From positions 1 to 64,000 of the forward strand of contig NZ_JASHIU010000004.1 of assembly GCF_030733545.1 (NCBI RefSeq): a stretch of 64,000 nucleotides of DNA. Reading direction: 5' to 3'. The DNA comes from Oceanicaulis sp. MMSF_3324. GTDB lineage: Bacteria > Pseudomonadota > Alphaproteobacteria > Caulobacterales > Maricaulaceae. This document shows, one piece after another, positions 1 to 64,000 of the stretch. Both the position numbers and the translations under genes were made by a program. The notes under the pieces were generated by a model. The model saw only the letters and a program-made list of their open reading frames with translations. It searched no databases and had not been told where the DNA came from. The first letter of the stretch is position 1. The number at the start of each line of letters is the position of its first letter.

Positions 1-504
1 CCCCCCCGCCTCGCCCACGCCTTAAAACCCTGAGAAAGAACCGCGCGGAGTCTAGGCGCGGTTGCGGGGAGGGGGATTAGGGGCGGGTTGAGGCGCTCGC
101 CGCTTCCAGTTTGTGCCTCTTTCCCCGCGAAGGCGGGGACCCAGAGATCATCCAGCGCCGCGCACCCGGCTCTGGACCCCGGACGGAGTTTACCCTCAAC
201 TCGATTGGGGGCCGGGGAAGAGAAGAATACCTCGGTCCTCGGACTTGCCTGCCCCGGACTCGATCAGGGGATCCGGGGACCCATGCCCAGCCGAGCCGCC
301 GCATGGGCCTCCGGGTCTAGCCCGAAGGCCGAGAGGCTGGGTGCACTCTTACCAACGTTATACCCGGCATCCCGGCATTGAGCAGGGATGATGTTTGAGG
401 TCTCACGGTTCCTGCGGCAGATCCCGTGGTATAAAAAATCTCTAGGTTGTAGTGATGCTGTCGTCGTAGCTTAATTGCTAAAACCCCAAATGTAAAAGCG
501 TGCG
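1..504. other. Intergenic region with extragenic-repeat debris
   Basis: I see no convincing gene here. Positions 120-310 hold GC-rich inverted segments (CCCCGCGAAGGCGGGG near 125-140; a GGACCCCGGA segment near 173-183 and a related GGGATCCGGGGACCC near 267-281) of the kind seen in dispersed extragenic repeats. From about 360 the sequence becomes AT-richer and leads into the nuclease gene, so this is the left edge of the low-GC island. I found no tRNA end, integrase or direct repeat that would mark an attachment site. Confidence 0.5.
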
Positions 505-2232
505 ATGGAAATGGCGAAAATTCGATATTTAAAAATCCAAAATTTTCGATCAATTCAGAGATTTGAGTGGTGGCCAAACCCAGGGATCAATTGCCTAATT
601 GGACCGGGCGATAGCGGCAAATCCACGGTAATAGATGCTATCGATCTATGTCTTGGTCCTCGTCGCACAAAAGAATTTTCAGATAGCGATTTTTTCAAAC
701 TGAATACTCAGGATCCCATTGTAATTGAAATAACAATTAGTGAATTAGAAGACACTCTAAAAAACTTTGACAAGTATGATCATTTTCTTCGTGGCGTGAG
801 TCCTGAAGATAAAATAATAGAAGATGAAGTTGGATCAGGGCTGGAATCTGCGCTTACAGTTGTATTGAGGGTGGATTCCGACTTGGATCCTCAGTGGTCC
901 CTCTATTCTGATCGCGCCTCTGCTGCTGGAGTTGAGAAGTCTTTGGCTTGGGGTGATCGGATCTTGCTAGCAGGCACTAGAATTGATGCCGCTAATCAAT
1001 TTCATCTGTCTTGGAGGAAGGGCTCGGTTTTGGAGCGTCTATCAGACAAAAAGCCGGACACTGCAGCCAAAATAGCTGACGCCAAGCGGGCCGCTCGAGA
1101 AGCATTTAGCGATATAGCCGATGACCAATTAGACGAAACATTAGAACAAGTTGAGATTATAGCTGAAACACTAGGTGTGGATCTTGAAGTTGAGTTGCAG
1201 GCTCTCCTGAACGCACAGTCAATCTCTCTCAGTGGTGGAACGATTGCAGTGCATGATGCAGATGGCATTCCATTAGCGCGTTTAGGCCTTGGCTCCACTC
1301 GATTGCTGGTCGCAGGCTTGCTCAATGCGGCACAAAATGGCTCTGATTTGGTTCTAGTTGATGAGTTGGAGCACGGACTTGAGCCTCACCGAATTATACG
1401 TTTTCTAGGTGCTCTGGGCGCAAAGGACGGAAATAGTCCTAAGCAAGCGTTTTTTACATCGCATTCACCTGTCGTGTTGCGCGAATTGAATGCTGACCAA
1501 CTATTCGTTTTAAGGAGAAGCGAAGATAGGCACCGAGCTTTATGCGCATCGATAGACGATCACTCGCAAGGCTCCGTTCGCTCTCAGCCTGAAGCCTTCC
1601 TCGCCAAACGGGTTTTGATTTGTGAGGGTGCTTCGGAAGTGGGCATGATCCGTGGCATCGAGCTTTATCGATCAGAACAAGGCGAAAAGTCACTCTTCGG
1701 TGCAGGGCTCAATCTTATTAATGCAGGCGGTTGTTCGCGATTGTACGAGCGGTCTCCTACTCTTCAATCGCTTGGCTATGCGTGCGCTAGTTTTCGCGAT
1801 GATGATGTTGAGCCGGACTTAGTCCAGGAAACAATGTTCGAGGCAAATGGTGGCGCTGTTTTCAAGTGGCAGGCTGGACAAAAAATAGAGGCTGCGATCG
1901 TTCATGGGCTTCCAGCTTCTCAGCTTCTCCAATTTATAGATTGCGCAGTCGAGCTCCATGGCGAGGACCTTATCGACCAACATCTGAACGGAGCGTCAGG
2001 CGGCGATCTGTCTGTCGCTTTTTTCCGCTCTGCTATAGACGGTTCAGCAATTACCTTTGACCAGCGCGACCAGCTAATAAATGCTTGTAGCGGAAAGAAA
2101 AACCCTTGGTTTAAAAACGTTGGGGCAATGCAAGAACTGACAAAGAGGGTTATCGCTCCCCACTTTGATGAGTGTGAGGTTGCCTTCAGAAGTGTGATCA
2201 ACAATATCCAAATTTGGGCGCTCGATGGCTGA
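505..2232 (+). CDS. OLD-family ATP-dependent endonuclease (GajA-like, class 2 OLD)
   Basis: The protein has 575 residues, with an ABC-type ATPase followed by a TOPRIM nuclease domain. Visible motifs are Walker A (GPGDSGKST, residues 33-41), a signature-like GLGSTR near 261-266, Walker B (LVLVDELEHGL, D286/E287), the H-loop His320 (FFTSHSP), and TOPRIM acids at E374 (LICEGASE) and D432-D434 (FRDDDVE). Length and order match class 2 OLD nucleases, which are encoded beside a UvrD-like helicase and form the GajA part of Gabija anti-phage systems. The next gene, overlapping by 8 bp, is that helicase. GC content is clearly below the surroundings, which suggests transfer. ATG 511 (residue 3) is a possible alternative start. 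Function in phage defence is inferred from family and pairing. Confidence 0.85.
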   Translation: MEMAKIRYLKIQNFRSIQRFEWWPNPGINCLIGPGDSGKSTVIDAIDLCLGPRRTKEFSDSDFFKLNTQDPIVIEITISELEDTLKNFDKYDHFLRGVSPEDKIIEDEVGSGLESALTVVLRVDSDLDPQWSLYSDRASAAGVEKSLAWGDRILLAGTRIDAANQFHLSWRKGSVLERLSDKKPDTAAKIADAKRAAREAFSDIADDQLDETLEQVEIIAETLGVDLEVELQALLNAQSISLSGGTIAVHDADGIPLARLGLGSTRLLVAGLLNAAQNGSDLVLVDELEHGLEPHRIIRFLGALGAKDGNSPKQAFFTSHSPVVLRELNADQLFVLRRSEDRHRALCASIDDHSQGSVRSQPEAFLAKRVLICEGASEVGMIRGIELYRSEQGEKSLFGAGLNLINAGGCSRLYERSPTLQSLGYACASFRDDDVEPDLVQETMFEANGGAVFKWQAGQKIEAAIVHGLPASQLLQFIDCAVELHGEDLIDQHLNGASGGDLSVAFFRSAIDGSAITFDQRDQLINACSGKKNPWFKNVGAMQELTKRVIAPHFDECEVAFRSVINNIQIWALDG

Positions 2233-3640
2233 CGTTGCCACGATACTTTCCGCAACAAGGGGCTCAATTACTGCTCCGGCTGGGTGTGGAAAAACTCACC
2301 TATTAGTCGAGACGGTTGCTGCATATGACGGCCTATTACCTGTATTGATTTTGACCCATACTAATGCTGGTGTGGCTGCACTTAGAAATCGATTTGCAAA
2401 ATTGGGCGTGGCTCCATCGAAATTCCGACTCTCAACATTGGATGGCTGGGGGCTTCGTATGCTTCACGCCTTTCCAATGCGCTCAGGAATAGACTCAAGA
2501 CATCTTCTTTTGAAGTCTCCCAAGTATGATTATCCAGCAATGCGTGAGGGGGTATTGAATATTCTCCGAGGGCAGCACTTGAATGATTTGCTTAATTCAA
2601 ACTATTCAATGCTAATAGTAGATGAATACCAAGATTGTTCGCCCGCGCAGCATGAAACGGTCGTTCTTCTTGCTGAACAATTAAAAACCGTTGTCCTAGG
2701 GGATCCACTTCAAGCAATTTTCGATTTCACGCCCGAAGGTGTGGTCGATTGGGAGCATGATGTATCCGAGGCATTTCCAGAGATCGGGACGTTAGATCGG
2801 CCTTGGAGGTGGGTCTTGGCAGGCAATGAGGAACTAGGTGCTTGGCTGCTTGAAGTCAGACGAGAGTTGCTCAAAGGTAATAAGATTGATCTGAGAAACT
2901 CTCCTGATTGCGTCGAGTGGGTACAGCTATGTGGTGACTCTGAAGATAGAGAGAGACGACTCAGAGCTGCCAATACTCGCCCACAAACCAAAGGAGGCGG
3001 GAGTCTGATCATGGCAAAGTGGCCGCAAGACCAATCTCGGTTTGCTAGGGAAATTCCTGGTGCAACAAAAGTCGAAAATACTGACTTAAGTGATCTCGCC
3101 AATTTCGCTGAAAGCTTCAACCCGGCGGCCAAAGGTGCCGCAGGATCTCTTTTGGAATTAGCAACAACAATGATGACTGGTGTCGATCGAAGCGCGCTTG
3201 CGGCACGCATAAAATCAATAAGTGACAAGACCAATAGGAATCCGCCATCGGACCTTGAGCTTGCTATTATCGATTTTCTCAAAAGCCCTTCATACGGAAA
3301 AGGCGCGGGCATTCTTTCAGAATGCTCGCGACAAGGCGGAACACGTGTTTTTAGGCAGGAAATGCTAAGAGCTGCTATTGAAGTTCTAAACCGCGCTGAA
3401 ATGTCAGGCGGGAAGGCCTTAAATGAATTATTCGTAGAGCTGCGTGATAAGGCACGAATACGTGGTCGAGCTATTCCTACCAAGGCCGTAGGAAGCACAC
3501 TGTTATTCAAGGGGCTTGAGGCTGAGGTATCGATTATCTTGGAACCGGAGGCTATGGAGCATGAGCGCGACCTTTACGTCGCACTCACCCGAGGGTCAAA
3601 AAAGCTTGTCGTTTGTTCCAAAACACCATTACTTCCTTAA
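2225..3640 (+). CDS. UvrD/Rep-type superfamily 1 helicase (GajB-like)
   Basis: This is a 471-residue compact SF1A helicase. Motif I (APAGCGKT) is at residues 17-24, motif II (IVDEYQD) near 131-137, motif III (GDPLQAIFDF) near 159-168, and the C-terminal motifs V (FKGLE) and VI (YVALTRG) lie just before the end. It is much shorter than UvrD (about 720 residues), consistent with the GajB partner of an OLD nuclease. Its start lies inside the end of the nuclease gene (8-bp overlap), so the two are probably translationally coupled. Low GC matches the upstream gene. In Gabija, GajB is thought to sense DNA ends and trigger GajA; whether that applies here is inference. Confidence 0.85.
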   Translation: MADVATILSATRGSITAPAGCGKTHLLVETVAAYDGLLPVLILTHTNAGVAALRNRFAKLGVAPSKFRLSTLDGWGLRMLHAFPMRSGIDSRHLLLKSPKYDYPAMREGVLNILRGQHLNDLLNSNYSMLIVDEYQDCSPAQHETVVLLAEQLKTVVLGDPLQAIFDFTPEGVVDWEHDVSEAFPEIGTLDRPWRWVLAGNEELGAWLLEVRRELLKGNKIDLRNSPDCVEWVQLCGDSEDRERRLRAANTRPQTKGGGSLIMAKWPQDQSRFAREIPGATKVENTDLSDLANFAESFNPAAKGAAGSLLELATTMMTGVDRSALAARIKSISDKTNRNPPSDLELAIIDFLKSPSYGKGAGILSECSRQGGTRVFRQEMLRAAIEVLNRAEMSGGKALNELFVELRDKARIRGRAIPTKAVGSTLLFKGLEAEVSIILEPEAMEHERDLYVALTRGSKKLVVCSKTPLLP

Positions 3641-3907
3641 TAGGGAAAAATTCTCAGCCCCCCCCCAGTTTGAGATTACATGCGCCCTGCCACACCCCTG
3701 AGCAGACCCTCAATACACTTCCTTCGCCCCCTCAAGGCTGGGCTTGAGCCAGTCTTGCAGTTCGGGGGATAGCAAGGGACAAACACCCCCTACCCAAACG
3801 TCCCCTTAAGCCCCATATGACAAATATGTCAGTGCGAGATGGGTGTTTTTTCTCTCGCGATAGAGTATACCGCACTGCAACAGACCCATTTTCATGTCGA
3901 GGGCGGA
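3641..3907. other. Intergenic gap right of the low-GC island
   Basis: The gap contains a long C run (about 3659-3667) shortly after the helicase stop, then mixed-GC DNA. No gene or attachment-site repeat was found. Composition returns to the high-GC background at panD. Confidence 0.4.
3818..3831. promoter_or_regulatory. TGACA-N4-TGTCA palindrome upstream of panD
   Basis: A perfect 5-bp inverted repeat (TGACA AATA TGTCA) lies about 77 bp upstream of the panD start. It could be an operator or part of a promoter. No neighbouring regulator gene identifies it. Confidence 0.3.
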
Positions 3908-4294
3908 ATGCAACTCACCATGATGAAGACCAAGCTTCACCGCGCCGCGGTGACGCAGGCGGACCTTCACTATGAAGGCTCCATCTCCATCGACCAGGAC
4001 CTGCTGGATGCAGCCGGCATCCTGATCAATGAGCAGGTGGATGTCCTGAACATCAACAATGGCGAACGGTTCACCACCTACGCCATCTCGGCGCCGCGCG
4101 GCTCGAAAATGTTCGGCATCAACGGCGCCGCAGCACGCCTGGCCCAGCCCGGCGATCGCATCATCGTGGTGGCCTATGCGGGCATGGCGGCGGAAGAAGC
4201 GCGCCAGTTCACCCCGACGGTGGTCCTTCTGGACGAGAACAATGACGTGGTGAGCGTCGAGGAAGGCTCCGGCCGCAAGCTGGATGCAGCTTAG
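3908..4294 (+). CDS. panD: Aspartate 1-decarboxylase (pantothenate pathway)
   Basis: PanD makes beta-alanine from L-aspartate for pantothenate and coenzyme A synthesis, using a pyruvoyl group formed by self-cleavage. The ATG at 3908 aligns exactly with the E. coli start (residue pattern MxxTMxxxKLHR), giving 128 residues against 126; the upstream in-frame ATG at 3839 would add an unsupported extension. The processing site Gly24-Ser25 in LHYEGS is intact, as is the conserved TYAIxAxRGS segment and NGAAA. The gene stands alone between the low-GC island and the convergent cheZ, with a strong terminator between them. Confidence 0.96.
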
Positions 4295-7345: not shown

Positions 7346-7909
7346 TTACTCAGCCCGCTTGAAAAACCGCACCACCGTGTCGCCCGCTTCCAGCGTGTCC
7401 AGAAGCTCCCAGCCTGTCGCACTCACCTCCACGCCCTTGCGCTCTTCCAGCACGGCGATTGCGTCATCCTTCACCCAGGCGCCCTCCACAAGGCGGGCGA
7501 GGGCGGTGTCGCCCAGACCCTGCGCATAGGGCGGGTCGAGGAACACCAGATCAAAGGGCGTGCCCATATTGGCGGGCTTGGGGCCCAGATCGGTGGCGCT
7601 GCGACGGTGCAGCTTGGTGCAGCCGAACAGTTGAAGCGCGTCTACATTGGTGCGGATGGCGCCGCGGGCGGCGGGGTCGGTCTCCACAAACAGCGCAAAG
7701 CTGGCCCCACGACTGATCGCTTCCAGGCCGAGCGCGCCCGAGCCGGCGAACAGATCCATCACGCGCAGGCCGTCGAGCTCGATGCCCCAGGGGGCGTGGG
7801 TGAGCTTGTTGAAGACGCTTTCGCGCACGCGGTCGGTGGTGGGCCGGGTCTTGTCGCCCTTGGGGGCGGTGATGGCGCGGCCCTTATGAGCGCCGGCGAC
7901 GATCCGCAT
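7346..7909 (-). CDS. rsmD: 16S rRNA (guanine966-N2)-methyltransferase
   Basis: The 187 residues start at the ATG at 7907-7909 (MRIVAGxxKGR, the usual RsmD beginning). The S-adenosylmethionine motif VMDLFAGSGALGLEA and the catalytic FLDPPY are present. The segment TRPTTDRVRESVFN is typical of the family. The start lies within the last codons of the pseudouridine synthase gene (26-bp overlap), a tight rRNA-modification pair. An open frame continues upstream to 8281, but it runs over the low-complexity end of that gene and is not real. Confidence 0.93.
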   Translation of the reverse strand: MRIVAGAHKGRAITAPKGDKTRPTTDRVRESVFNKLTHAPWGIELDGLRVMDLFAGSGALGLEAISRGASFALFVETDPAARGAIRTNVDALQLFGCTKLHRRSATDLGPKPANMGTPFDLVFLDPPYAQGLGDTALARLVEGAWVKDDAIAVLEERKGVEVSATGWELLDTLEAGDTVVRFFKRAE

Positions 7910-8945
7910 CTTTTCTGCCTTCAGCCTTCTTGCCGCCTGACGGCTTGCCGTCAGCGCGCTTGTTGGATTTGGGTTTCTCGTTGGCCTTGGGTTTGGCCTT
8001 CGCCCAGCCCTTGCCCGATTTCGATTTGCCGCCGGCGGGCATGATGGAGTCTGCGTCCGGGCCGGACTTGGCCTTGCCGCCGGATTTCTGATGCGGGCGG
8101 TTCGCCTTGGGCTTGGCTTTCGCCGTGCCGGTGCGGGTGTCGGGCTTGGCGGTCTCGCCGGGTTTGAGCGGCTGGCCGTCGGTGTCGAGCGGGTAGAGCT
8201 TGCCCAGCTGGTCACGCAGCACGCTGAGCTTGCTTTCAGAGATGTCCCCGCGCTTGAGCGAGCCGAGCTGGAAGGGGCCATAGGCGACCCGCATCAGCCG
8301 GTTCACGGTCAGCCCGACGCTTTGCAGCACCTTCCTGACCTCGCGGTTCTTGCCTTCCTTGATGCCCACGGTCAGCCAGACATTGGCGCCCGTGCGGCGA
8401 TCCACGGTCACTTCCACCGGGCCATAGACCACGCCATCCACCACCGTGCCGTTCTCGAGCTCGGCCAGCGCCTTGTCGGACGCATTGCCATAGGCGCGCA
8501 CGCGATAGCGCCGCGTCCAGCCGGTGGAGGGCAGTTCGAGCACCCGCGCCAGCTCGCCATCATTGGTCAGCAACAGCAGCCCCTCGGAATTGAGATCGAG
8601 CCGCCCGACCGAGATCACCCGGCCCATATCCTGGGGCAGGGTCTGGAATACGGTTTCGCGGCCCTGAGGATCGCTGTGCGTAGTCAGAAGGCCGACGGGC
8701 TTGTGGTAACGCCAGACGCGCGTGGGCGGGCGCTGGCCGATGCTCTCGCCGTCCACACGCACATCGTCATCGGGCATGACCTTGAAAGCGGGGGTGCGCA
8801 GGATCTCGCCATTGACGCTGACCCGGCCCTTTTCGATCAGCCGTTCGGCCTCGCGCCGCGAGGCGATCCCGGCATGGGCCAGAACCTTGGCGATGCGTTC
8901 GCCGCTGTCGTCAGGCGTATCGGGGGTAGACGGGGTGTCGGTCAA
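7884..8945 (-). CDS. 23S rRNA pseudouridine synthase, RluB/RsuA family, with long basic tail
   Basis: The 353 residues comprise an N-terminal S4 RNA-binding domain (ERIAKVLAHAGIASRREAERLI), a RsuA/RluB catalytic domain with GRLDLNSEGLLLLTNDG holding the catalytic Asp, and the conserved KEGKNREVRKVL segment. About 100 C-terminal residues are Lys/Pro/Gly-rich low complexity, probably disordered and RNA-binding. The start appears to be TTG at 8945; no in-frame ATG precedes the S4 domain. It overlaps rsmD and is divergent from tadA. RluB is the likeliest subtype, but RluE/RluF-type specificity cannot be excluded. Confidence 0.88.
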   Translation of the reverse strand: MTDTPSTPDTPDDSGERIAKVLAHAGIASRREAERLIEKGRVSVNGEILRTPAFKVMPDDDVRVDGESIGQRPPTRVWRYHKPVGLLTTHSDPQGRETVFQTLPQDMGRVISVGRLDLNSEGLLLLTNDGELARVLELPSTGWTRRYRVRAYGNASDKALAELENGTVVDGVVYGPVEVTVDRRTGANVWLTVGIKEGKNREVRKVLQSVGLTVNRLMRVAYGPFQLGSLKRGDISESKLSVLRDQLGKLYPLDTDGQPLKPGETAKPDTRTGTAKAKPKANRPHQKSGGKAKSGPDADSIMPAGGKSKSGKGWAKAKPKANEKPKSNKRADGKPSGGKKAEGRKDADRRRRS

Positions 8946-8983
8946 AACTTGCCAGCGCTCCAGGCCAGAGGTAAGGCCCGCTC

Positions 8984-9499
8984 ATGACGACGATTGAACC
9001 ATCGCCCGAGCAGGATCGTGAAACAGGCTTTATGCGGCGAGCATTGGGTCTTGCGCAAGCCGCGGCTGCGGCGGGCGAGACGCCTGTGGGCGCTCTGATT
9101 GTTGATCCGCAGACGGATGAGGTGATCGCCGAGGCGGGCAACGCCCCCATTTCAGACTGTGATCCCACCGGCCATGCCGAGATCCGCGCCCTGCGTCTCG
9201 CCGCGCAAAAGCTGGGCAATTACCGCCTGACCGGGCTGGAGCTCTACGTCACGCTGGAGCCCTGCGCCATGTGCGCGGGCGCAATCAGCCATGCGCGCAT
9301 CGGGCGGGTGGTCTATGGCGCGTCCGACCCCAAGGGCGGCGCGGTTGATCATGGCCCGCGCTTTTTTACCCAACCCACCTGCCATTGGCGGCCTGAGGTG
9401 TTGGGCGGCGTGCTGGCGGAGGAGGCGAGCGCAATGCTGAAAGCTTTCTTCCGGGCGCGGCGCAAGGCAAAGGTTAGGCCCAGCCGAACCACATCATGA
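8984..9499 (+). CDS. tadA: tRNA-specific adenosine deaminase
   Basis: TadA deaminates A34 to inosine in the tRNA-Arg(ACG) anticodon. The 171 residues contain the zinc site H64-A-E66 (PTGHAEIRA) and P93-C94-x-x-C97 (EPCAMC), with E66 as the proton shuttle. The gene is divergent from the pseudouridine synthase with only 38 bp between starts. Its 3' end overlaps a small convergent frame by 26 bp. Confidence 0.95.
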   Translation: MTTIEPSPEQDRETGFMRRALGLAQAAAAAGETPVGALIVDPQTDEVIAEAGNAPISDCDPTGHAEIRALRLAAQKLGNYRLTGLELYVTLEPCAMCAGAISHARIGRVVYGASDPKGGAVDHGPRFFTQPTCHWRPEVLGGVLAEEASAMLKAFFRARRKAKVRPSRTTS

Positions 9500-28355: not shown

Positions 28356-29135
28356 ATGCTGATCGAGACCCATATCCGCGCCTGGCAAAGCCGGTTCCCT
28401 GCGTTTGTGGACGCCAAGGCCGGCTTGCAACGTTTCATGCGCCGGACTTTGCGGCGCCCGTTCGAGCCTGAATTCTGCCTGTTGTCACGTTGGCGACCCG
28501 ATCCGGGCGAGGTCTTTATCGATGTGGGCGCCCATCGCGGCCAGAGTGTGGACGCGATCCGGCTCTACCAGCCCGATGCGCCGATCTACGCCTTTGAACC
28601 CAATGTGCATCTGGCGACCGGGCTCGCGACCCTGTTTGACGATGACCCGGCGCTGGCGGTCTATGCCTGCGGTTTGGGCGACAAGGATGAGGCGCGGCGG
28701 CTTTATGTGCCGGTCTATCGCGGTTTCGTCTATGACGGGCTCGCCTCGTTTGATTTCGATCAATCGCGGACCTGGCTCAGCGATGAGACCGTGGCCGGGT
28801 TCGATCCGGACCGGTTCGAGATGATGGCGGGCGAGGCGCGCACGTTCACCCTCGACATGCTCGATCTTGATCCCGGCTTCATCAAGATCGACGCGCCGGG
28901 CTGGTTCGAGGCCGTGGTGCGCGGCGCGAAGGATACGCTCAAACGCTGCCGCCCGCTGATCCTGATGCAATCCAATCCCGACGCCGATCAGGTGCTGACC
29001 TCAGAGCTGGGCTATACCCGCGCCGCCTATGACGGCGTCCGCCTGCGCCCGGGGCGGCAGGGCCGCGAGAACACCGTCTACGCGCCAGCCGAACGCATGG
29101 ACGACCTCAGACGCTGCGGATTGTGGGCGGGTTAG
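28356..29135 (+). CDS. FkbM-family methyltransferase
   Basis: The 259 residues start at the ATG at 28356 (GGAG upstream). The S-adenosylmethionine motif is VFIDVGAHRGQSVDAIRLY, followed by IYAFEPN, and the late IKIDAPGWFEAVVRGA segment corresponds to the family's IKIDxEGxE...G motif with an unusual Pro. FkbM enzymes methylate sugars or lipids of surface glycans. It follows the phosphatase by 52 bp in the same direction, inside the lipid A cluster. Confidence 0.83.
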   Translation: MLIETHIRAWQSRFPAFVDAKAGLQRFMRRTLRRPFEPEFCLLSRWRPDPGEVFIDVGAHRGQSVDAIRLYQPDAPIYAFEPNVHLATGLATLFDDDPALAVYACGLGDKDEARRLYVPVYRGFVYDGLASFDFDQSRTWLSDETVAGFDPDRFEMMAGEARTFTLDMLDLDPGFIKIDAPGWFEAVVRGAKDTLKRCRPLILMQSNPDADQVLTSELGYTRAAYDGVRLRPGRQGRENTVYAPAERMDDLRRCGLWAG

Positions 29136-29833
29136 AGAGTCTGAAACAACGTGTTTGCACCGGTGACCAGAACGAGCACGCCAAACAGGATCAATATGAA
29201 TTTGATCATGAATTGACGCAGGCCGCGTCGGGAGTAGGCGCTGAGCGCGTCAAGGTTGAGCACTTGTTGTGGTTTGATGTCTCCGCGTCCGATGGCCCTG
29301 AGAAGTTCATGCTTGTTCGCGGTTTCGAGCTTTTTCCAGTCCTTGACGTAAGCGCCTCGGAACAAATGCTCTCTGAATGACTTGGGCCAAGGCAGGCCAA
29401 GAATGACGCAATAAGCGAGTAGGGAAACTCCGAGCCCCAATAATAGGCTGGTGAGCTGGGGCGGTGGATCTATAGGGGTGGTATTGGAAACTTGAGACGC
29501 TATTTCCGGAAACAGGAATATTGAAATTCCAACTAAAACAATCGCTGGTGCGATTCCAAACGAGAGAAAAATAATCTGTGAAAGCGTGTCGTTTCGACCA
29601 GACCCAATGTAAATTCTTGCAAACTCTTTGGCCTTTAGCCTGATCCAGCGCCTGTCCTCCGAAGAGAGGGCTATGAAGGTCTCGAAGCGTTTATTGATGC
29701 TACGATCGAGAAGCGCCAGGTAAGCTACCGATAAGGCCAGGCCTGTCAGGACGATGACCATTGCTGCGCCAAGCATCACGACAATACGCATCGGCGTCTC
29801 TAGTGATGCAAACCAGTTCTGAATATCGGTCAT
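29132..29833 (-). CDS. Membrane protein of unknown function
   Basis: The 233 residues have about four membrane segments (16-41, 84-107, 126-148, 208-229). Between the first two is a charged cytoplasmic stretch (RSINKRFETFIALSSEDRRWIRLKAKEFARIY). GC content is visibly lower than its neighbours, which suggests recent acquisition or fast drift. It converges on the FkbM gene with a 4-bp overlap. I do not recognise the family. Confidence 0.75.
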   Translation of the reverse strand: MTDIQNWFASLETPMRIVVMLGAAMVIVLTGLALSVAYLALLDRSINKRFETFIALSSEDRRWIRLKAKEFARIYIGSGRNDTLSQIIFLSFGIAPAIVLVGISIFLFPEIASQVSNTTPIDPPPQLTSLLLGLGVSLLAYCVILGLPWPKSFREHLFRGAYVKDWKKLETANKHELLRAIGRGDIKPQQVLNLDALSAYSRRGLRQFMIKFILILFGVLVLVTGANTLFQTL

Positions 29834-29991
29834 GGCGCGGCTCCTCTAAGTCACGGACTTAAAGGTGCTTTGCGCGACAGTTCAACGTTCAGGGGTATGG
29901 GGCCTGAACGCTGGGGGATATGGGCGGGGTAACCGTTCTTCCTCTCTTTCCCGCATGCCCTGGGAAGAGGGATTTACAGAACACTCCACAG

Positions 29992-30081
29992 TGTCATCCC
30001 CCGCTTCATGCGGGGGACCCATGCCGGTGGGTTGGATCACAGGTCACGGCATGGGTTCGCCAGATAAACCGGCGAATGACA
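29992..30081 (+). repeat. Family A 90-bp repeat, copy 4 (with B)
   Basis: It runs from TGTCATCCCCCGC to GGCGAATGACA, is exactly 90 bp, and is followed by B after 19 bp. It fills most of the 374-bp gap between the membrane-protein gene and the ABC transporter end; I see no gene there. Confidence 0.9.
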
Positions 30082-30100
30082 TGGAAAAAGGCTGAAGCTG

Positions 30101-30198
30101 AAACCCCGGCCAAGCGCAGCGCAGAGCCGGGGCCTCCATCAGAATTTTGCGCTAGAGGTGGCAAGGGGTCCCGGGGCTTCGCGATGCTCGCCCGGGAA
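30101..30198 (+). repeat. Family B repeat, copy 3
   Basis: About 98 bp, from AAACCCCGGCCAAGCGCAGC to CGCCCGGGA. It ends 10 bp before the ABC transporter stop, as copy 2 ends 1 bp before the acyltransferase stop. Confidence 0.85.
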
Positions 30199-30207
30199 TT
30201 CACCACA

Positions 30208-31998
30208 CTACCCGTCCGCAAACTGCAGCGCGCTTAATTGCGCGTAGAGGCCGTTTTGCCCGATCAGGCTGTCATGGTCGCCGCTTTCCACGATCTCGCC
30301 CGCTTTCATGACATAGATGCGGTCGGCCTTGCGCACGGTGGCGAGACGGTGGGCGATGACGATGGTGGTGCGGCCCTTGCTCAGCTCGTCGAGCGCTTCT
30401 TGCACCCGCGCTTCGGAATTGGCGTCGAGCGCGCTCGTGGCTTCGTCGAGCAAGAGGACCGGTGCGTCCTTGAGGATGGCGCGGGCGATGGCGACGCGCT
30501 GGCGCTGACCACCCGACAGGTTTGAGCCTTTGGGGCCAGCCTGCGTGTCATATCCGCTTGAGAGACCCAGAATGAAGTCGTGGGCGTCGGCGGCTTTGGC
30601 GGCCGCGATGATCTCGTCTTCAGAGGCGCCGAGTTTTCCAAGCGCGATATTGTTGCGGATCGTGTCGTCAAAGAGGGTCACCTCCTGGCTGACGAGCGCG
30701 AGCTTTGTGCGCAGCGAGGCGAGGGTGACCGATCTGATGTCCTGCCCGTCAATCAGGACCTCGCCTTCAACCGGGTCATAGAGTCGGGCGATGAGGTTCA
30801 GCAGCGTGGTCTTGCCCGAGCCTGACGGGCCGACGAGCGCGATGGTTTCGCCCGGTCTGGCGTCGAGGGTGATCTGATGCAGGGCGTCCACGCCCGCCTC
30901 GTACTGAAAGCGCACATCGCGCACCTGAACATGACCGTTTTCAAAGGCCAGCGGTCGGGCGTCGGGCGCTTCGGTGAGGTTGGGTTCTTCGTCCAGCAGG
31001 GCGAAGACGCGATCAAGCACCGCGAAGCCTTCCTGCAGCACGCCCGAGAGCGAGGCGAGGGCGCGGATGGGCGAGCTCATCACCCCGAAGGCGACGATGA
31101 AGCCCAGAAGGTCTGACAATTCGGTCGCGCCATTGAGCGCGCGCCAGCCGGCAAAGCCGAAGATCACCGCCAGCGCCACGCCCGCGGCGACCTCCATGAT
31201 GGGTTCGATCCGGGCGCGCTGGGCGACCATGGCGAGCAAGAGCTCGAACCGGCTCTGGAAACGTCCTCGAGCGCGGTCCCGGGACCAGTCTTCGAGTGAG
31301 AAGGTCTTGATCATCCGCGCGCCGGAAAAGCCTTCCTCGAGAAAACTCGACACATCGCCCATCTGGTCCTGGATATCGCCTGCGCGCTTGCGGATCGCCT
31401 TGCCGATGACGGTGATCGGATGCCCCGCGATCAGCAGCACCACCAGCACGACGAGGGTCAGCGCCCAGTCGAGCCAGAACAGCACCACGAGACACCCCAC
31501 CACGGTGAGAAAGTCGCGCGTGAGATTGTTCGCCGCGCGGATCAGGCCCTCGCGCAGCATGGTGATGTCATTGGTGAAGCGCGAGATGATCGCGCCGACG
31601 GGTTCGCGTTCGAGGCGCTGGAAGTCGGCGGTGATCAAGCGGTCGAACATGGCGATCTGCAAATCGCGCATGATCGCCAGCGCCAGCCGATTGGTGGCGA
31701 GGTTCTGCAGAAAGAGGCTGACCGAGCGCACGATGACCGCGCCCAGAATGAGCACGGGCGCCAGCCAGAGCACGCTGGGCTCGCGGTTTTCCAACAAGCC
31801 GGAGGCCTGCTGCACCACGACGCCATAGCCCGACGCCGCGCCCGCCGTGATGGCGGCGAGCAAGGTCGCCCAGGCCAGAAGGCCCTTGTGCTTTGTGATC
31901 TGCTCGCGCCAGAGCCGTTTCGCCAGCGCAAAGGAGCGCGCGCTCTGGGGCTTGGGCGCGCCGGGAGGCGCGCCATGCGGGTCAGGCGTCTCAGACAG
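30208..31998 (-). CDS. MsbA-type ABC transporter (permease-ATPase fusion)
   Basis: This is a half-transporter with six membrane helices then an ATPase: Walker A LVGPSGSGKTTLL, signature NLSGGQRQRVAIARA, Walker B VLLLDEATSALD, H-loop IAHRL. By position in the lipid A cluster it is probably the lipid A/LPS flippase. The frame has no ATG at its beginning. A TTG start at 31863 would cut into the first helix; CTG at 31998 keeps it (596 residues) and has AAGGA nine to ten bases upstream, so I place the start there. The start remains tentative. Confidence 0.85.
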   Translation of the reverse strand: MSETPDPHGAPPGAPKPQSARSFALAKRLWREQITKHKGLLAWATLLAAITAGAASGYGVVVQQASGLLENREPSVLWLAPVLILGAVIVRSVSLFLQNLATNRLALAIMRDLQIAMFDRLITADFQRLEREPVGAIISRFTNDITMLREGLIRAANNLTRDFLTVVGCLVVLFWLDWALTLVVLVVLLIAGHPITVIGKAIRKRAGDIQDQMGDVSSFLEEGFSGARMIKTFSLEDWSRDRARGRFQSRFELLLAMVAQRARIEPIMEVAAGVALAVIFGFAGWRALNGATELSDLLGFIVAFGVMSSPIRALASLSGVLQEGFAVLDRVFALLDEEPNLTEAPDARPLAFENGHVQVRDVRFQYEAGVDALHQITLDARPGETIALVGPSGSGKTTLLNLIARLYDPVEGEVLIDGQDIRSVTLASLRTKLALVSQEVTLFDDTIRNNIALGKLGASEDEIIAAAKAADAHDFILGLSSGYDTQAGPKGSNLSGGQRQRVAIARAILKDAPVLLLDEATSALDANSEARVQEALDELSKGRTTIVIAHRLATVRKADRIYVMKAGEIVESGDHDSLIGQNGLYAQLSALQFADG

Positions 31999-61696: not shown

Positions 61697-63109
61697 CTAG
61701 CCCGTGCCGCCGACCGTCAAACCGTCAATGCGCAAAGTGGGTTGGCCCACGCCGACCGGCACGCCCTGACCGGCCTTGCCGCAGGTGCCCACGCCCGGAT
61801 CGAGCTTCATGTCATTGCCGATCATGGAGATCTTCGTCAGCGCAGTCGGGCCGTCGCCAATCAGGGTCGCGCCCTTGATCGGCTCGCAGATCTTCCCGTC
61901 GCGCACGCGATAGGCCTCGGTGCAGCGGAACACGAACTTGCCCGAGGTGATATCCACCTGACCGCCGCCGAAATTCTTGGCGTAGATGCCGTCCTTCAGG
62001 CTCTCCAGGATTTCGCCCGGATCGCGATCGCCCGCTTCCATGATGGTGTTGGTCATGCGCGGCATGGGCGGGTGGGCATAGCTTTCCCGCCGGCCGTTGC
62101 CAGTGGGCTCCACCCCCATCAGACGGGCGTTCTGCCGATCCTGCATATAGCCTTTGAGCACGCCGTCCTCGATCAACACCGTTCGGCCGGTGGGCGTGCC
62201 CTCGTCATCAAAGCTCAAGGAGCCGCGCCGATCGGGAATGGTGCCATCGTCAACGACGGTCACGCCCTTGGCGGCGACCTGTTGACCGATCTTGCCGGAA
62301 AAGGCGGATGCGCCCTTGCGGTTGAAATCGCCTTCAAGGCCATGGCCCACCGCTTCGTGCAGCAGGATGGCGGGCCAGCCCGGGCCCAACACGACCTGCC
62401 ATTCGCCCGCAGGGGCATCCACGGCTTCCAGATTGACCTTGGCGACCCGCAGCGCTTCGTCGGCGAGGCCTTTCCAGGCGCCGGGTTCAATCCATTGATC
62501 AAAGGCGGCGCGACCGCCGGCCCCGGCCGATCCGGTTTCCCGGCGGCCCTGGCGTTCACAGGTCACGGCCACATTCACGCGCACCAGCGGACGCACCTCG
62601 GTGCGCACATCGCCGCCTGTGCGGACAATGCCGATGACCCGGCGCGAGGCGGAGACAGAGGCGGACACTTGGACCACTTCAGGATCCTTGGCGCGCAGAT
62701 AGGCGTCGATTTCAGCCAGCAGGGTGGATTTCGCTTCGAACCCCGGCTGGGCGATGACGTCCACATCCTTGTAGAGGGTCTGGTTGGCGCGGGCCGGGGA
62801 GGGCGCCATCACCGCGTCGCGCCCCTGACGGGCGGCGCTCGCGGTTTCACCCGCGCGTTTGAGCGCCGCCAGGGTGGGGTCAGAGGAATGGGCGAAGCCG
62901 GACGCCTCGCCGAACACGCCGCGCAAGCCAAAGCCGCGCTCGGCGTCGAAATTGGCCACTTTCAGCCGGCCATCATCGAAGGCGAGGCTTTCAGACGCCG
63001 ATGTTTCAAGGAACAGTTCGCCGTCATCCGCCCCGACCAGCGCCTCGTCGAGCACGCGGCCCGCATCATCAGCGTCAAATTCAAAAGCGGTGAACGGATC
63101 AGTGGTCAT
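61697..63109 (-). CDS. tldD: Metalloprotease TldD
   Basis: The 470 residues start at the ATG at 63109 (AGGAG upstream); the frame extends further but without support. The zinc motif is HEAVGHGLEGD (HExxxH), with the later glycine-rich C-terminal VGVGQPTLRIDGLTVGGTG. TldD is the catalytic half of the TldD/TldE complex; its partner pmbA is at 33043. The receptor genes follow on the same strand after 132 bp, but a functional link is not shown. Confidence 0.95.
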   Translation of the reverse strand: MTTDPFTAFEFDADDAGRVLDEALVGADDGELFLETSASESLAFDDGRLKVANFDAERGFGLRGVFGEASGFAHSSDPTLAALKRAGETASAARQGRDAVMAPSPARANQTLYKDVDVIAQPGFEAKSTLLAEIDAYLRAKDPEVVQVSASVSASRRVIGIVRTGGDVRTEVRPLVRVNVAVTCERQGRRETGSAGAGGRAAFDQWIEPGAWKGLADEALRVAKVNLEAVDAPAGEWQVVLGPGWPAILLHEAVGHGLEGDFNRKGASAFSGKIGQQVAAKGVTVVDDGTIPDRRGSLSFDDEGTPTGRTVLIEDGVLKGYMQDRQNARLMGVEPTGNGRRESYAHPPMPRMTNTIMEAGDRDPGEILESLKDGIYAKNFGGGQVDITSGKFVFRCTEAYRVRDGKICEPIKGATLIGDGPTALTKISMIGNDMKLDPGVGTCGKAGQGVPVGVGQPTLRIDGLTVGGTG

Positions 63110-63287
63110 AACGGCTCCTGCACGTGGCGGTACGCCCCATACATAGACCGTGCGGCAAGTGAGTGCGAGGGGCGCGGACAGACGCGTATGGTCAATCAGA
63201 AATAACAACCATCGAGCGCATTAAGCGTAGAGGTTTCCCCTTTGAGCGGATATGATTGAGACATCTGATGGCATCTGCGGGGGCGTG

Positions 63288-64000
63288 ATGTTTGTTTTGG
63301 TCAATCTTTTTCGCTGGTTGTCTAGTTGGGGGCGCGTCCTGCTATGCGTTATCGCATTCGCCATTCTGCTCGGCGCTTGCGTGGCCTGGGCCATTACCCA
63401 TTTCGATTGGAGCGATAGCCTGCCGGAGTTCGCCGCTTTCTGGGTCTACAGCTATTACAGCTTTGTAAAAGCCAACATCCTTCTGACGGTGACCTTGTTG
63501 ACGATTTTCGTGACCAATGCGGAGACCGTTTACCAGCTTTTACTGCGCCGTCGATTCAAACGCGTGTTCGGTCACCAGATCAGGACGCAGCGATACATTG
63601 TCTCTATTCCTGAGTTCAAAATCTCCGATGAAGCCAACACGGCCTTGAACGCAGCAGGCCTTTACACAACCCGAAAGCGCTTCACTCCACAAAATGTGCC
63701 TGACCGGTACAAGGCCGGCGATATTCGCCGGATCATCGCCTCCAGCGACCTTGAAGGCGCGTCCTTCCTGCTTGACGAGATCGGCAAGTACACCATCAGT
63801 GGCCCAGTGATCAAAGCGGGTGATGAATTGTTTAATGCGGGGGACAGCTTTCTCGCATTCGGTTTGCAGACCAATCCGAACACGCAATTCTTGATCAGTA
63901 GCTTGAACCAATTCCGCAAGGCACAGGTCGAGCTGTCCAACCTTCCTATCCGCAATCCCGAGACATCTGTCCGGGCGCTTGCGGCATTAACCGACTTTAA
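63288..64000 (+). CDS. Membrane protein of unknown function (3'-truncated by window end)
   Basis: The frame stays open to the window end: 237 residues from ATG 63288 (GCGGGGGCG upstream) or 12 more from ATG 63252. Two membrane helices are visible near residues 17-36 and 63-80, then a soluble part (TQRYIVSIPEFKISDEANTALNAAGLYTTRKR; AGDSFLAFGLQTNPNTQFLISSLNQFRKAQVEL). Base composition is lower in GC than its left neighbours. I recognise no family; the missing C-terminal part may hold the decisive domain. Confidence 0.65.
   Translation, partial: MFVLVNLFRWLSSWGRVLLCVIAFAILLGACVAWAITHFDWSDSLPEFAAFWVYSYYSFVKANILLTVTLLTIFVTNAETVYQLLLRRRFKRVFGHQIRTQRYIVSIPEFKISDEANTALNAAGLYTTRKRFTPQNVPDRYKAGDIRRIIASSDLEGASFLLDEIGKYTISGPVIKAGDELFNAGDSFLAFGLQTNPNTQFLISSLNQFRKAQVELSNLPIRNPETSVRALAALTDF

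Follow-up and report, generated by a model that had tools for sequence, protein, structure and literature searches.

The stretch of DNA analysed here, called the window throughout, is 64,000 nucleotides long and opens with two genes that follow one another on the forward strand:

505..2232, + strand: gajA-like gene, 575 aa (PADLOC PDLC04168, Pfam, AlphaFold2, Foldseek); the protein consists of an N-terminal ABC ATPase with a helical insert, a TOPRIM nuclease and a C-terminal helical domain
2225..3640, + strand: gajB-like gene, encoding a compact UvrD-like SF1 helicase, 471 aa (PADLOC PDLC04173, Pfam, AlphaFold2, Foldseek)

According to the list of open reading frames (ORFs), the two genes overlap by 8 bp (2225-2232), and the adjacent, overlapping ABC-ATPase/TOPRIM and SF1 helicase genes that an earlier note on this DNA had described are indeed found at these coordinates. 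For gajA, the ATG at 511, which would give a protein of 573 aa, appears to be a likelier start than 505, since 10 of 18 homologues have their first methionine opposite the third residue of window GajA. A scan for sigma-70 promoters returned a single site, below the count obtained with shuffled sequence, and is uninformative.

The two genes are also distinguished by their composition, and the lower GC content that had been claimed for them relative to the rest of the window is borne out. GC is 0.454-0.500 in 1-kb windows inside 501-3500 and 0.540-0.699 in 1-kb windows from 3501 onward. GC3 is 0.41 for gajA and gajB alike, compared with 0.58-0.89 for 49 other ORFs, a range whose lower bound is inflated because the choice of ORFs leaned to high GC3 and which may include some picks that are not genes. 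Two more stretches of lower GC (0.54-0.57) are present in the window, at 29001-30500 and 63001-64000.

A distant branch of the Gabija family

Profile searches support the proposed Gabija identity of the pair. GajA matches PADLOC profile PDLC04168 (E 1.4e-204, residues 3-572) and GajB matches PDLC04173 (E 1.5e-163, residues 5-470). These are full-length matches with no substantial difference seen, and GajA and GajB are the best PADLOC assignments by a wide margin over all others. Pfam families AAA_21 and AAA_15 (GajA) and UvrD-helicase (GajB) score above their cut-offs, OLD-like_TOPRIM in GajA barely so (23.8 vs 23.2), and Pfam together with the AlphaFold2 model places in GajA an ABC ATPase fused to a C-terminal TOPRIM. 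Nothing came near a cut-off in an NCBIfam search of both proteins, and no Pfam or NCBIfam family indicated a non-defence OLD/helicase pair. Two other assignments were ruled out: a class 1 stand-alone OLD, by the presence of the helicase partner, and a retron or Septu effector ATPase, by scores far under that of GajA.

The Gabija system of Bacillus cereus VD045 (PDB 8SM3 and others) has the same two genes, an ABC-ATPase/TOPRIM nuclease followed by a UvrD-like helicase, and its proteins are similar in size to those of the window pair. Judged by sequence, the branch to which the window pair belongs is nevertheless far from this solved complex. A phmmer search against solved structures recovered B. 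cereus GajB (BcGajB) at E 0.0095, and B. cereus GajA (BcGajA) was absent from the matches up to E 1. With profiles (53 and 51 sequences) as queries, GajB ranks first for the helicase (E 1e-13), and for the nuclease the class 1 OLD of Thermus scotoductus (TsOLD) comes first (1.2e-13) and GajA second (4e-13). AlphaFold2 models of GajA and GajB have a mean pLDDT of 87.5 and 93.3, respectively, with lower confidence at GajA residues 161-280, the region of the dimerisation insert (block pLDDT 54-86). In Foldseek, the GajA model is closest to class 1 TsOLD (6.5e-18) and then to BcGajA (8.1e-16), and the GajB model matches UvrD at 5.7e-16, BcGajB standing at rank 26 (2.3e-11). By query length, the TM-score is 0.35-0.49 against the listed Gabija GajA chains and 0.33-0.36 against the GajB chains, so that kinship with the solved Gabija chains is clear yet distant.

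TsOLD (6P74), the best Foldseek match, has the ABC ATPase and TOPRIM in common with window GajA, but class 1 OLD genes stand alone and their products, unlike window GajA, have no C-terminal helical domain. In the text available from PMC7049728, class 2 OLD is defined by length and a helicase partner, and the C-terminal helical domain is described as missing in class 1; in the AlphaFold2 model of GajA, C-terminal helices (461-574) follow the last TOPRIM strand. An HMM alignment further identifies a P-loop Asp that is common to window GajA and BcGajA and missing from the Walker A of TsOLD. This residue is no class mark, because the commoner PDLC00086 GajA proteins are also without it. Class 2 OLD and GajA are regarded as one group in the accessible part of PMC10568477.

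PADLOC already lists the branch under Gabija (PDLC04168/PDLC04173), and the window pair is an ordinary member of this known, little-studied branch. No published experiment attributable to it was found in the literature searched. A Gabija system of Providencia, shown to be protective, has a GajA of 736 aa (PMC12935923, as far as its text was available) and for this reason probably lies outside the compact branch.

Association of gajA with gajB

The pairing was followed in a set of 87 loci, comprising 80 kept from at least 458 candidate relatives and 7 from viral contigs. The scan behind the 80 loci covered one genome per species and was run with an alignment as query, since a single-protein scan gave no matches; the relatives kept are 41-50% identical in their best segment, among the matches listed. 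A gajB gene immediately 3' of gajA was located by script in 84 of the 87 loci (among the matches listed). Locus L104, in which an ORF at 7508-9121 outside the distance filter was recognised by eye, raises the count to 85, and in the remaining two, L138 and L167, the contig stops about 300 bp or less from gajA. Estimated from aligned starts, the commonest gajA/gajB overlap among the matches listed is 11 bp (59 loci), followed by 8 bp (9 loci). In two further genome samples, which have at least two genomes in common with the 87-locus set, all 15 other near-full-length homologues occur with GajB; none was seen with the fragments L017 and L085. None of 13 remoter GajA-like loci (L018-L029, L086) had a BLAST match to window GajB in their flanks, which extend for no more than 1.5 kb and are too short to judge. 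Four of these, L018, L019, L020 and L086, form a group matching PDLC04168 at E ~1e-64 to 1e-71, with three members from the same order as the window genome and one from the same class.

The identity matrices of GajA and GajB are correlated with r = 0.95 (n = 81, among the matches listed), a value that includes shared ancestry and compares with a permutation maximum of 0.28 in 2000. A third operon gene was sought and rejected, as none recurs: no Pfam family (E <= 1e-5) is present in more than 3 of the 112 neighbours scanned, these being what was left of 155 adjacent longest-ORF calls (among the matches listed) once 43 had been removed by length or overlap. PADLOC matches of neighbour ORFs (E <= 1e-10) include AbiEii, AriA, SduA, JetA, RmrA and LmuB, a list from which no enrichment is claimed.

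Homologues are also carried by 324 plasmid records, 200 of them typed conjugative, a count that is redundant given that 189 records are from Klebsiella. Phage records yielded two weak, partial matches.

Conservation of the catalytic residues

The motifs of both proteins, described as intact in the earlier note, proved to be so, the tested residues being invariant or nearly so in 87 GajA and 81 GajB sequences (among the matches listed). In GajA, E374, E378, D432, D434, E462 and K537 are found in all 87 sequences, window included, and the tested residues of Walker A, Walker B and the H-loop (H320) are identical in the 87 save for S40, which is S or T (both among the matches listed). The SF1 helicase motifs of GajB are present, and their tested residues are identical in the 81 sequences listed with two exceptions, R411 (kept in 80/81) and T425 (79/81). 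Conservation of Walker A, Walker B and E374/E378 has partly been selected for, because the scan patterns for the 80 loci were placed in the two Walker motifs, and one of the viral-contig patterns (7 loci) spanned E374/E378. D432, D434, E462, K537 and the helicase residues lie outside every search pattern.

According to the HMM alignment, E374, D432, D434 and H320 of the window protein correspond to E379, D432, D434 and H320 of BcGajA. Window GajA has the TOPRIM metal-A residues (Glu, DxD) and the metal-B Glu residues, E378 and E462 being paired by position, as is K537, kept in 87/87 among the matches listed, with the late Lys (K562 in Burkholderia pseudomallei OLD, K541 in BcGajA); equivalents of BcGajA E383 and K541 are, again by position, probably present in window GajA. 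The helicase DE motif of GajB is at D133, compared with D162 in BcGajB, the window protein having fewer preceding residues. Endonuclease activity of BcGajA is reported to require E379, D511 and K541 (PMC8136825, available text), and its conserved set is given as E379, E383, D432, D434, D511, D513 and K541 (PMC10822852, available text). For B. pseudomallei OLD, the residues used were E400, E404, D455, D457, T506, E508 and K562 (PMC6755086, available text). The class 2 OLD proteins of B. pseudomallei and Xanthomonas campestris have in common with window GajA the ExxxE, the DxD, the following Glu and the late Lys, together with C-terminal helices that are also seen in the window GajA model. In eight GajA-like proteins of another kind (L021, L022, L023, L025-L029), the place of the TOPRIM DxD is occupied by DxQ (7/8) or DxP (1/8); the four of these that were scanned match PDLC00086.

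Window GajA has Lys at position 460, which, paired by position and not by superposition, would be the place of B. pseudomallei T506 and BcGajA D511; this metal-B helper seems to be Lys460 here. The apparent place of T506 is not conserved in the branch: among the matches listed, residue 460 is Ala in 66 of the 87 sequences, Ser in 10, Lys, Cys and Thr in 3 each, and Asp and Phe in 1 each. The branch may also differ in a structural element. Insert 3 of class 2 OLD sits between TOPRIM alpha3 and beta4 (PMC7049728, text as available) and is present in the B. pseudomallei and X. campestris proteins, whereas the single predicted model of window GajA passes from a helix at 439-447 to a strand at 451-454 with no helix between. 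Finally, R96, kept in 73/87 GajA sequences among the matches listed, may correspond by position to BcGajA R97, an arginine that contacts GajB.

Probable acquisition of the pair at the panD locus

Comparison with related genomes delimits an insertion that contains the pair:

116..386, no strand: left flank, a palindromic repeat element with many copies in the genome, 72-73% similar in both relatives
387..3730, no strand: inserted low-GC segment, delimited by blastn searches of L060 and L061 and by alignment with them; left edge at about 387
3908..4294, + strand: panD, right flank of the insertion (translation)

The ORF at 3908-4294, which we take to be panD (aspartate 1-decarboxylase), has a counterpart in 46 of the 61 genomes searched, counting this one. 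The two nearest relatives by panD are G272 (98% identical) and G301 (97%). Both have the right flank in common with the window, from 3731 or 3784, and the right edge of the insert accordingly lies between 3731 and 3784, varying with the relative compared. The left flank is partly common to both, within window 6-389, at 72-87% identity and largely as repeat. Between the flanks the sequences differ. In G272, the gap (L060:3801-7530) is occupied by two C5-cytosine methyltransferases together with an Mrr_cat endonuclease-like ORF, a cargo that appears restriction-modification-like. In G301 (L061:6869-7630), it holds a single ORF of 253 aa that looks membrane-anchored by eye and has no Pfam or PADLOC match. 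Searches of plasmids and of 200 genomes of the order, a set that includes no known positive, gave no relative of this ORF, which is a candidate for a putative new defence gene. Both cargoes are low in GC.

The earlier note had inferred a horizontally acquired defence island next to panD. Foreign acquisition of the pair is supported: comparison of the panD region reveals that the pair is absent from the site in the two nearest relatives, with other low-GC cargo in its place, and the composition is not that of the background. The word 'island' goes too far, as only a single two-gene unit is present. The own genome contains one GajA match. GajA has a match at E <= 1e-20 in 21 of 398 genomes of the order and at E < 1e-170 in 8, own included; 12 of the 13 other genus members have no match at E <= 1e-20, and one has a distant match. 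In 74 relatives, the mean GC of the pair equals that of its flanks (0.593 vs 0.590, among the matches listed), so low GC is particular to this genome and not a family trait.

The window begins where a contig begins, and the left-flank gene is at the end of contig C8. On the G301 map, the C8 end and the window contig start are about 10 bp apart, so that gene order is unchanged on the left side; an unassembled repeat may lie at the break. The palindromic repeat (window 116-390), at the left edge of the insertion and close to this contig break, has many similar copies: the relative's flank has 63 matches in the genome, one of them the true flank.

No tRNA was found, the insert edges show no direct repeats of at least 11 bp, and the insert has no gene-sized ORFs beyond the pair and the opposite-strand ORFs that overlap it. 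From these three results we infer that the pair would have entered the chromosome by recombination between the conserved flanks. No donor was identified at the DNA level among plasmids, where two records cover 2-4% of the query. The idea of a general panD hotspot was considered and is unsupported beyond the subclade: in eight remoter relatives, which have the left-flank gene linked to panD on a single strand and whose intervening genes were seen as ORFs only, all eight intervals are within 0.06 GC of their surroundings, and cargo swapping is for this reason shown for the three sister genomes only. G257, where 8 kb separates the flank gene from panD and the two lie on opposite strands, was left out of this count.

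Proposed function and alternative explanations

We estimate at roughly 85% the probability that the pair is an anti-phage system of the Gabija type, made up of two genes and acquired horizontally. The genes form a complete, real Gabija-type unit, probably of recent acquisition and most likely a working one. Because the branch is distant from the B. cereus proteins and one catalytic position is apparently changed, function is assigned by family. In the available parts of the published work, GajB is docked on a GajA tetramer (PMC10781630), the GajA nuclease is restrained by nucleotides (PMC8136825, PMC10822852), Gabija of Pseudomonas aeruginosa targets phage DNA whose ends are shielded from RecBCD (PMC12407980), and B. 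cereus GajB displayed no helicase activity (PMC10681800). By analogy, GajA and GajB of the window would form a complex, which in B. cereus is a 4:4 assembly, and its nuclease would respond to nucleotide level or to DNA ends. Release on phage DNA might follow a fall in nucleotides, or phage proteins barring RecBCD from DNA ends, and the released GajA would then cut DNA, resulting in defence.

Other functions can be envisaged for a class 2 OLD nuclease and its helicase. A role in DNA repair or plasmid maintenance, and not in phage defence, would agree with the frequency of homologues on plasmids and with the nearness of the GajB model to UvrD. It is nonetheless very unlikely, since one would expect vertical inheritance to retain a conserved repair function and the gene is so sparse, both in the order (8/398 at E < 1e-170) and in the genus, and the same gap in one relative carries restriction-modification-like genes. 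That the pair is a decayed, inactive Gabija copy is suggested by Lys460, where the assayed enzymes seem to have Thr or Asp, and is hardly credible: neither reading frame is interrupted, the remaining motif residues that were tested are preserved, and position 460 is one of Ala, Ser, Lys, Cys and Thr in 85/87 sequences (among the matches listed), which makes the change a trait of the branch.

A reading that overlaps with the preferred one holds that the pair is a defence unit with a trigger and an output unlike those of B. cereus Gabija. Three features are consistent with this: how far the sequences lie from the solved complex, the apparent change at the metal-B position and the model's lack of a helix at the Insert-3 place. 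Against it, the two systems agree in their core catalytic residues, in the helicase partner, in gene order and in the general layout of domains, and we consider it unlikely. More doubtful still is a further reading in which GajA of this branch would be a one-metal nickase requiring GajB to make nicks into breaks, a proposal derived from the reduced metal-B site (mostly Ala, here Lys) and the missing Insert-3 helix. If true, the division of labour between nickase and GajB would differ from that of the tested enzymes.

Significance

As a probable horizontally acquired Gabija-type system, the pair offers a clean case in which Gabija, reduced to its two genes, has entered a fixed gap in the chromosome. 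Across three sister genomes the low-GC content of this gap differs, and at least one of the cargoes resembles another defence system. Furthermore, the locus points to a large branch of Gabija on many proteobacterial chromosomes and plasmids, often conjugative, in which one of the tested positions of the nuclease site appears to be changed.
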